From contig JAOUIA010000023.1 in assembly GCA_029884335.1 (NCBI GenBank), positions 1 to 52,439 of the forward strand: a stretch of DNA of 52,439 nucleotides, read 5' to 3'. Below, in pieces: positions 16,261-47,411 of this stretch. The stretch is from Betaproteobacteria bacterium. GTDB lineage: Bacteria > Pseudomonadota > Gammaproteobacteria > Burkholderiales > Casimicrobiaceae. The notes below the pieces were generated by a model. The model worked only from the letters and a program-made list of their open reading frames with translations, was not told the origin of the DNA and searched no databases. Made by a program: the position numbers and the translations under genes. Positions within the stretch are counted from its first letter, which is position 1. Each line of letters begins with the position of its first letter.

Positions 16261-17442
16261 GTGCGCTCGCTGATCGCGCGCTACGGCGCCCTGTTCCGTC
16301 ACGCAGGCGCCGCGCGCTTCGCCGCGCTCTCGCTCGTCATGCGCATGCCGCTCGGCACCGTGGGGCTCGCCACGCTGCTGCACCTGCGCGAGCTGTCGGG
16401 GTCGATCGCGTTCGCGGGAAGCGTGGTCGGCGCCCAGCTCGTCGCCACCGCCGTCGCCGCGCCGCTGGTCGGCCGCCTGGTCGACAGGCGCGGGCCGCGG
16501 GGCGTGCTGCTCGTCACCGGGACGGTCGCGCCGATCGCGCTGGCGACGATGCTCGCCGCAGACCGCCTCGGGCTCTCGCGCCCGGCGATCTTCGCCACGG
16601 CGATCGCGTTCGGCGCGTTCGCGCCGCCCATCACCGTGCTGGTCCGCACGCTGTGGCGCATGCGGCTCGAGGAAGGTCCCGTCCGGCAGACCGCGTTCGC
16701 GCTCGACGCGGTGATCCTCGAGCTCGCCTACACGCTGGGACCGCTCGCGATCGCGCTCGCCGTCGGCCTCGGTTCGACGACGGCGGCGATGGCCGTGGCG
16801 GTGGCGGTCACGTCTACGGCCGTGCCGCTGCTCTTCGCATCCGGCGCGCTGTCGTGGTGGAAGCCGCAGCCGCGCGGCGAACGTCACTGGCTCGGCCCGC
16901 TCTCCGCGAAGCCGCTGCTGGTCGTCTACGCGGCCACCTTCGCGCTGACGATGACCTTCGGCGCGCTGGAAGTGGGCTACCCGACGTTCGGCCGCGCCGC
17001 CGGCGCGGACAGCTGGGGGCCGGTGCTCATCGCCGTCAACTCCACGGGCAGCGCGGTCGCGGGGCTCCTCTACGGCGGCCTGACGATCCGCACGCCGCTC
17101 AAGCGCCTGCTGGCCGTGCTGATGGGTGCGATGGCCGTGCCGATTGCGCTGCACCTGCCAGTCGACAGCCCCTGGCTGCTCGCCCCGTTCGCGTTCGCGG
17201 CGGGCGCGCTGATCGCGCCGGCGATGACGACCGTCTCGCTGCTGATCTCGACGCTCGCGCCCGCGCGCTACGCGACGGAGGCGTTCACCTGGTCGTCGAC
17301 GGCGATCGTCACCGGCATCGGGGTCGGCATGGCGATCGCCGGCACGCTGGTCGAGCGCCACGGCCCGAACGGAGCGTTCGCGTTCGCCGTCGCCACCGCG
17401 CTCGCCGGCGCCGCCGTCGCGCTGCTGCTCCGCCGACGCTAG
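16261..17442 (+). CDS. MFS transporter (major facilitator superfamily)
   Basis: 393 residues from the GTG at 16261, with about twelve hydrophobic segments. GRLVDRRGPR between segments 2 and 3 matches the MFS loop motif (G-x-L-x-D-R-x-G-x-R). A polar central loop near 195-205 separates the two halves. It is an inner-membrane efflux or uptake carrier of unknown substrate. It reads in the same direction as dnaE with a 25-base gap. Its last four bases overlap one end of repeat element copy A. Confidence 0.85.
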   Translation: MRSLIARYGALFRHAGAARFAALSLVMRMPLGTVGLATLLHLRELSGSIAFAGSVVGAQLVATAVAAPLVGRLVDRRGPRGVLLVTGTVAPIALATMLAADRLGLSRPAIFATAIAFGAFAPPITVLVRTLWRMRLEEGPVRQTAFALDAVILELAYTLGPLAIALAVGLGSTTAAMAVAVAVTSTAVPLLFASGALSWWKPQPRGERHWLGPLSAKPLLVVYAATFALTMTFGALEVGYPTFGRAAGADSWGPVLIAVNSTGSAVAGLLYGGLTIRTPLKRLLAVLMGAMAVPIALHLPVDSPWLLAPFAFAAGALIAPAMTTVSLLISTLAPARYATEAFTWSSTAIVTGIGVGMAIAGTLVERHGPNGAFAFAVATALAGAAVALLLRRR

Positions 17443-17624
17443 CCGGTCGATGCAAGACGCGCTCGGGAGCGCGGCGGATGCCGCAGCGTCGGCGTAGCGC
17501 CGCTTGCATCGAGCCGGGGATCGCGCGAGCGCCCTCGGGGCGGCCCGTCGGGCGCTCGCCGGCAACGGCACGACGGAATGCCCGCCTTGCGCACGCTTCT
17601 GTTCCAGTTGCTGCCTTTCGTCAT
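17439..17624 (-). repeat. 186-bp structured intergenic element, copy A
   Basis: Aligns without a gap over all 186 bases to copies at 23325-23510, 26534-26719 and 47226-47411. By hand count about 79% of bases equal copy B, and bases 52-99 are identical. Hairpin I pairs element bases 66-75 with 91-100 (ten pairs). Stem II pairs 113-122 with 169-178. Orientation is sense with the acyl-CoA ligase, whose stop lies 35 bases upstream. No gene start follows it on this strand, so it sits between convergent genes. It can be read as 61 codons from ATG to TAG. Confidence 0.85.
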
Positions 17625-17659
17625 GCCGCCGGACACGAAGGCAACGTCACGCGCCGCGC

Positions 17660-46478: not shown

Positions 46479-47224
46479 CGCCGGCGGCGGAGCACGGCGC
46501 GTCGAGCACGCTGGCCGCCGCGCACCTGCACAAGCGCTACGCGACGCGCACGGTCGTCCACGACGTCTCGCTCGACGTGCACGCCGGCGAGGTCGTCGGG
46601 CTGCTGGGGCCCAACGGGGCCGGCAAGACGACGTGCTTCTACATGATCGTCGGCCTGGTGGCCGCCGACGGCGGGCGCATCGTGCTCGACGCCGAGGAGC
46701 TCTCGAAGCTGCCGATCCACCAGCGCGCGCGCCGCGGGCTCTCCTACCTGCCCCAGGAAGCCTCGATCTTCCGCAAGCTCACGGTCGCCGAGAACGTGCG
46801 CGCCATCCTCGAGCTGCAGGAGGAGGACGCGGACGCGATCGCCAACCGGCTCGACGCGCTGCTCGAGGACCTGTCGATCTCGCACCTCGCCCAGGCGCCG
46901 GCGGCCTCGCTGTCGGGCGGCGAGCGGCGCCGCTGCGAGATCGCGCGCGCGCTCGCCACCCGGCCCCGCTTCATCCTGCTCGACGAGCCGTTCGCCGGCG
47001 TCGACCCGATCGCCGTGCTCGACATCCAGCGCATCATCGGCTTCCTCAAGCAGCGCGGCATCGGCGTGCTGATCACCGACCACAACGTGCGCGAGACGCT
47101 CGGCATCTGCGACCGCGCCTACATCATCAACGAGGGCCGCGTCCTCGCCTCGGGCACGCCCGACGAGATTGTCTATAATGAGGCGGTGAGGAAAGTCTAT
47201 CTCGGCGAGCATTTCCGGTTGTAG
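46475..47224 (+). CDS. lptB: LPS export ABC ATPase LptB
   Basis: 249 residues, GTG start overlapping the lptA stop. Walker [10 protein letters not shown] (about 47-55), [14 protein letters not shown] (LptB-specific Q-loop), signature [15 protein letters not shown], Walker [15 protein letters not shown], switch His in TDHNVRETL. It powers LPS extraction together with LptFG, which are not in this window. A TATAAT lies within its last codons, and repeat copy D begins two bases after its stop. Confidence 0.97.
47174..47179 (+). promoter_or_regulatory. Candidate -10 (TATAAT) for rpoN inside lptB
   Basis: A perfect TATAAT within the lptB 3' end (codons for Val-Tyr-Asn). Transcription would begin near 47186 and the leader would consist mainly of repeat copy D. 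No good -35 is visible, so the -10 match is the only support. Confidence 0.35.
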
Positions 47225-47225
47225 A

Positions 47226-47411
47226 AGTCGCGGAAGGGTGTGAAGGGAGCAGGACCGCTGCACGGCGCGCGTTGTTTCGTGCCTTTGCCGGCGAGCGTCC
47301 GCCGGGCCGCCCCAAGGACGCTCGCCTGACCATCGACGCGATGCAAATGGCGCGACGCCGACCTCCCGACTGCCACCGCCAGCGCGGACGCCTCTCGCAT
47401 CGAATACCGTG
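47226..47411 (+). repeat. 186-bp structured intergenic element, copy D
   Basis: The most diverged copy; still aligns without gaps to the other three. Hairpin I is a perfect ten-pair stem (GCGAGCGTCC with GGACGCTCGC) in which pair 73-93 is T-A, where copies A and B have C-G, a compensating double change. It fills the whole lptB-rpoN gap. The ATG is missing, an in-frame TGA occurs at codon 6, and the position of the TAG stop in the other copies is here the GTG start codon of rpoN. Confidence 0.82.

Follow-up and report, generated by a model that had tools for sequence, protein, structure and literature searches.

MITEPsy1 of Pseudomonas syringae is described in PMC3189936 as a 100-nt element with no coding sequence, whose terminal inverted repeats begin GGAAGG or GTATCC and whose 4-nt target, CTAG or YTAA, is duplicated; six copies are given for strain 1448A, and its authors thought it derived from ISPsy2, of the IS5 family. 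ERIC, also known as IRU or RU-1, is presented in PMC2229807 and PMC10969869 as a 127-bp structured intergenic repeat with inverted repeats, present in tens to hundreds of copies, some of which lie at the 3' ends of genes and affect the transcript. The Yersinia repeat YPAL (RU-2) is characterized in PMC2229807 as about 168 bp long, not A+T-rich and accompanied by a target duplication, with both empty and filled sites known. Here we describe a repeat from an uncultured Burkholderiales lineage that is, with a probability of roughly 0.8, a non-autonomous, MITE-like transposable element of 186 bp that inserts at CTAG-like tetramers and duplicates them on insertion. It looks like a new family, ordinary in kind.

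The window, by which we mean the whole 52,439-nt stretch of contig JAOUIA010000023.1 analyzed here, comes from a 3.66-Mb draft genome in 120 contigs (G000, the own genome) and contains four copies of the element, on the strands that the first-pass annotation had assigned to them. Each copy measures 194 nt if the flanking CTAG-like tetramers are counted and 186 nt between them. Copy A occupies 17439..17632 on the minus strand (element proper 17443-17628; left tetramer CCGG, right CTAG), copy B 23325..23518 on the minus strand (23329-23514; CTAG on both sides), copy C 26526..26719 on the plus strand (26530-26715; CTGG and CTAG) and copy D, the most diverged, 47218..47411 on the plus strand (about 47222-47407; end tetramers eroded to GTTG and CGTG). 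The 186-bp frame drawn earlier was therefore right in length, with its ends displaced by 4 nt relative to the tetramer-bounded element. When copy B is used as a BLAST query against the own genome it recovers A (E 7.1e-45), C (1.8e-42) and D (4.2e-24). A hand count of about 79% agreement between A and B proved accurate (79.0% over the 186 bp first delimited), and their longest identical run, given earlier as element bases 52-99, is slightly longer, at 52-101. The further statement that all four copies align without insertion or deletion holds for A, B and C; copy D has 62-66% ungapped identity to these three, and in the MAFFT alignment its left third contains one extra base and lacks another.

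As first reported, all four copies are intergenic or touch gene ends. The plus-strand gene at 16261..17442, for which there is no NCBIfam match at 1e-10, ends in a TAG stop that belongs to the CTAG at the right end of copy A. Abutting the left end of copy B is a minus-strand gene (23515..24354) with no NCBIfam match, to which we give the inferred name petC (cytochrome c1) because it sits behind a Rieske gene and has a conserved C-terminus; the CTAG at 23515..23518 contains its stop (CAC TAG), with the TAG at 23515-23517. Downstream of the same copy lies an sspA-type gene (22704..23303, minus strand; best match NF007016, below its cut-off). Copy C is situated between divergently read genes, and copy D begins at the natural stop of lptB (46475..47224, plus strand) and is touched at its right end by the start of rpoN, the sigma-54 gene (47409..48881, plus strand). 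An apparent petABC operon within 23200-26900 is flanked by copies B and C, and an htrA/degP-type gene beside copy C starts about 8 nt past the element's right CTAG.

How widely is the element distributed? We built a covariance model from 22 copies, among them all four window copies, whose own model hits therefore follow by construction. With 116 candidates scored in each genome and a threshold of E<=1e-5, it gave 52 matches in the own genome, some of them partial, 68 in the congener G008, five each in G001 and G015, and one each in G003, G009, G020 and G021 (marginal in the last two); the remaining 14 of the 22 genus genomes had no match under the same settings. BLAST with copy B returned at least 42 matches in the own genome, with 40 of 364 candidates scored. 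The first-pass annotation had left it to a genome search whether further copies exist, and the nearly 50 additional matches, some partial, mean that the four-copy observation is not due to chance. In an order-wide sample of 399 genomes, searched under stricter filters with six candidates scored per genome, so that low-copy carriers could escape, the own genome alone matched; a pattern scan of named genomes, own genome excluded, found the core region in three MAGs (Burkholderiales bacterium SJ348, Burkholderiales bacterium SJ17 and Betaproteobacteria bacterium BroJett026). Phage and plasmid records contained no element match, and in viral contigs the short end patterns matched one and seven times, with a weak model hit (23.6 bits) to one of these contigs, all of which we take as chance. 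FastTree, applied to 90 of the 96 sequences, separated two own-genome groups (26 and 12 copies) from one G008 group (45 copies), split by genome, with group supports of 0.48-0.82 and 7 of the 90 sequences outside the groups. The element is a patchy, lineage-specific expansion, and its spread would have taken place separately in two or more lineages of the genus. It has no Rfam match, and a keyword search of the open-licence PMC literature recognized no such sequence family, which leaves it unmatched to any named repeat family in the sources searched.

Ends, placement, tetramers and length were analyzed in 87 of the 96 model matches, comprising 39 from the own genome and 48 of the 68 from G008; the nine weakest matches, all from the own genome and mostly short, and one fetched locus (L234) were left out. 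Both ends have a CTAGCAG...GATGCAA inverted repeat beside the CTAG-like tetramer, and conservation falls outside the C. The ends take the form CAGnnnGATGCAAnAGGCG, and the terminal inverted repeats are imperfect (CAGnnnGATGCAAnA). Both ends were recognizable in 58 of the 87 copies, and in 37 of these the length between the tetramers is 186 (16 of 20 in the own genome, 21 of 38 in G008). There is no conserved reading frame, no frame being open in more than 52 of the 85 copies that reach at least 180 nt. A shortened, 83-bp derivative in G008 (L165, 2968-3050) has kept both ends and lost the middle, and represents either a deletion form that is mobile or a copy that has decayed.

The same 58 copies bear on whether the tetramers are duplicated target. 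Five of the 38 G008 copies have identical non-CTAG tetramers left and right (ATAG, TTGG, CTGG and, twice, CTAA), compared with a shuffle mean of 0.98 (p=0.0014); tested position by position, the first base gives p=0.001 and the others 0.47, 0.08 and 0.16. There was one such case among the 20 own-genome copies, which is not significant (p=0.24). The matching suggests, short of proving, a 4-bp target duplication with the consensus CTAG. Since intergenic flanks cannot be aligned across species, no empty site was recovered base for base.

A different kind of evidence comes from the gene junctions themselves, and it bears directly on the proposal that these copies form a family of regulatory RNAs or leaders whose function is conserved at orthologous genes, a proposal that the strong covariation described below would favor. 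At the lptB-rpoN junction copy D is absent, with no insert of its size, in all 18 readable relatives (three more were unreadable), and at the petC-sspA junction 16 of the 17 relatives that could be read lack an element match. The exception is G001, whose petC junction has a copy in the opposite orientation and of a different sequence type (78.7 bits), which we read as a probable independent insertion. The petC stop reads CAC-TAG in 8 of the 17 readable relatives, and the target at this stop therefore probably pre-existed. Truncation of the genes by insertion is rejected for petC and lptB, since the C-terminal residues are the same in relatives for lptB and the same or similar for petC. When the flanks of the 39 own-genome copies were compared with those of the 48 G008 copies and 14 loci of other congeners, both flanks were common for copy B alone, with G001; five other own-genome copies had weak one-sided protein hits. 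Such lineage-specific placement identifies a mobile repeat and is the opposite of the recurrence in orthologous leaders that a regulatory RNA had been expected to show. With, in addition, no match in 14 of the 22 genus genomes and only a tRNA returned by an Rfam scan of the window at gathering score, the regulatory reading is rejected at orthologous sites and seems to us extremely unlikely overall.

The element is nonetheless structured, and its stems are conserved. Copy B is predicted to fold into three hairpins whichever strand is taken (RNA z -4.3, opposite-strand DNA z -4.9). Its central hairpin, at 23411..23446 on the minus strand, has the well-conserved core CCGACGGGCCGCCCC and is equivalent to A 17525-17560, C 26598-26633 and D 47290-47325; in its right-hand stem, at 23333..23398 on the minus strand (equivalents A 17447-17512, C 26646-26711 and D 47338-47403), inverted GATGCAAAAGGCG boxes close an inner hairpin. 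Across the 96 matches 25 of 37 pairs have changed on both sides, a value as high as which was reached in none of 500 shuffles, and 93.8% of cells pair, compared with 34-53% for slid structures, absolute figures that lean towards the model because the alignment was fitted to its structure. Between sister copies (39 pairs, accounting for 78 of the 96 sequences), stem positions show 0.053 differences per base in G/C columns, as against 0.174 for unpaired positions; the corresponding values for A/T columns are 0.112 and 0.222. Two-sided stem changes between sisters number 17 against 6.5 expected, and 11 of them preserve the pair. Plain neutral decay would not be expected to leave sister copies with stems better conserved than loops. 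The pattern could reflect constraint on copies still able to transpose, palindrome-correcting mutation or a retained RNA role. The first-pass annotation had judged the copies unusual for REP-like or MITE debris, and the length kept near 186 and the covarying, conserved stems agree with that judgment; its "functional unit" survives in the sense of something more than plain debris, whereas the placement is that of a mobile repeat.

A major feature of that placement is its concentration at stop codons. With gene ends called by a purpose-built codon-usage caller that uses no database, a stop codon falls within -8..+4 nt of an element end in 70 of the 87 copies (32 of 39 in the own genome, 38 of 48 in G008), and in 44 of the 87 it is exactly the TAG of the CTAG. 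TAG makes up 63 of 91 stops at the element as against 67 of 208 elsewhere. Control CTAG sites in non-coding parts of the same sequence are near a stop in 18 of 47 cases in the own genome and 6 of 29 in G008, far from the share seen for the copies (Fisher 6e-5 and 8e-7). As the control sites show, the choice of target explains part of the gene-end pattern; the remainder is likely the product of selection against other sites. The 52-kb window contains 20 CTAG sites, four of which fall at copies A, B and C, and seven other palindromic tetramers counted there occur 86 to 564 times each.

Could the copies, although mobile in origin, have later been kept by selection as structured 3'-UTR elements, that is, as stabilizers of mRNA 3' ends, RNase targets or weak terminators, as for ERIC and Correia? 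The stop codons at their ends, the mere 4 of 87 copies that lie between divergent genes, the slower change and pair-keeping substitutions of the stems among sister copies and the predicted RNA fold of copy B would all fit such a role, as would the four terminator-like sites around copies B and C, where 1.1 are expected, three of them inside the copies (no sigma-70-like promoters were found around the same two copies). However, copies are not conserved at the orthologous sites examined, their orientation relative to genes is not clearly biased (24 left-only and 37 right-only, p=0.12, not significant), and the stem pattern would be the same if only well-formed copies transpose, so that the constraint acts before insertion, or if palindromes are corrected by mutation. 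We regard later retention of this kind as a less likely possibility.

The core of the central hairpin is not confined to the element. Of 61 genomes, 12, the own genome among them, contain a 17-mer core, some of whose occurrences lie within the 186-bp element; a reversed 17-mer used as control is in 0 of 61. The hairpin GCGCCCGAMGGGCCGCCCCGRGGGCGC stands single or paired outside the element at L036 (G001), L040 (G014) and L041 (G003). The core also lies within 60-bp tandem repeats at L035 (G025), with further arrays at L034, L037 and L038 and a single occurrence at L039. In translation the L035 repeats give the N-terminal peptide MSPTGRPEGEYRSAQHEGSPV, of which one ORF (969-1973) carries four units and the following one (1973-2716) a single unit; by eye, both ORFs resemble ABC-transporter ATPases. 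These peptide repeats are reminiscent of the Rickettsia palindromic elements; the string GEYRSAQ was absent from the literature searched. The 60-bp core arrays found in relatives might be taken for CRISPR-like arrays, a reading that was dropped because the L035 array is an in-frame coding repeat. A doubtful extension would make the core GCCCGACGGGCCGCCCCGAGGGC an independent module in several otherwise unrelated repeats (the 186-bp element, the other hairpins and the 60-bp tandem repeats), in all of which one host or transposition protein may recognize the same hairpin; the 186-bp element would then serve, in addition, as a 3'-UTR structure that has been retained.

The element's strong hairpins, the TAG at its ends and the recurrence of its core in other repeats would also be in keeping with a repeat of the REP/REPIN type that a RAYT (HUH) transposase mobilizes, and PMC3733652 reports that flanking genes obtain TAG stops from GTAG REPs. 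Yet the 186-bp element is five to nine times the length of REPs, which are 20-40 bp, and it has inverted repeats at both ends together with matching tetramers in G008. To our knowledge REPs lack paired terminal inverted repeats and matching tetramers, and we know of no target duplication for GTAG REPs. We therefore consider a REP-type origin improbable.

If the element is instead a MITE-like transposon, what moves it? We infer a DDE-type transposase, acting in trans, that would cleave the element at its ends and insert it into CTAG, a tetramer that is rare in these GC-rich genomes and often coincides with a TAG stop; insertion at or just after a stop codon would do little damage, and copies there would survive for that reason. 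An IS630 mobilizer is unsupported, as the own genome has no match to its transposase (DDE_3) and the single DDE_3 element of G008 and the G020 element have ends unlike those of the 186-bp element. IS701 is linked to a YTAG-like target, a link for which our literature search found no paper; it does not fit as mobilizer, its transposase (DDE_5) having no match in any of the 22 genus genomes. Solitary ends offered another place for an autonomous copy, and this candidate was set aside as well, the regions opened holding the 83-bp derivative or lone ends and no transposase evident by eye among their ORFs. An autonomous relative with the same inverted repeats was thus not seen among two transposase families and a few solitary ends in draft MAGs.

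These observations place a MITE-like family, GC-rich and constrained in length, in an uncultured Burkholderiales lineage, and they suggest how an element that targets CTAG in a CTAG-poor genome comes to land at stop codons. The same gene junction is occupied twice, in two species. Its notable features are the stop-codon placement through a rare target and the conserved, covarying hairpins with a central core found also in other repeats. Its 50-70 diverged matches per genome, with stems that covary, make the family a good natural set in which to study whether mobile hairpins are later retained as mRNA 3'-end structures.

How, then, does the element compare with systems already known? GTAG REPs, in the account of PMC3733652, are likewise palindromic and their ends often give flanking genes a TAG stop, but they are 20-40 bp long and consist of a single palindrome. 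RUP and Correia/NEMIS, as presented in PMC2229807, share terminal inverted repeats and many copies with our element, have a target duplication such as is suggested for it, and differ in having TA at their ends; RUP is tied there to an IS630 element, for whose transposase the own genome gave no match. TA is the middle of the element's CTAG consensus, and the first-base matching of tetramers in G008 (p=0.001) favors a duplication longer than TA. ERIC, compared by its description and not by sequence, resembles the element in being structured, intergenic, multi-copy and furnished with inverted repeats, and differs in its TA ends and enterobacterial hosts (PMC2229807, PMC10969869). YPAL, also compared by description and not by sequence, is similar in length, not A+T-rich and has internal inverted repeats and a target duplication such as is suggested for the element; the duplication is 3-26 bp, however, and the repeats are internal, not terminal (PMC2229807). 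An IS5-group target fits in part: the consensus of the element is CTAG, and among the matched G008 variants CTAA, ATAG, TTGG and CTGG only CTAA fits YTAR. MITEPsy1, on the description in PMC3189936, is shorter (100 versus 186 nt), with ends that by eye are unlike those of the element, and is nevertheless, like it, small, non-coding, bounded by terminal inverted repeats and directed to CTAG.
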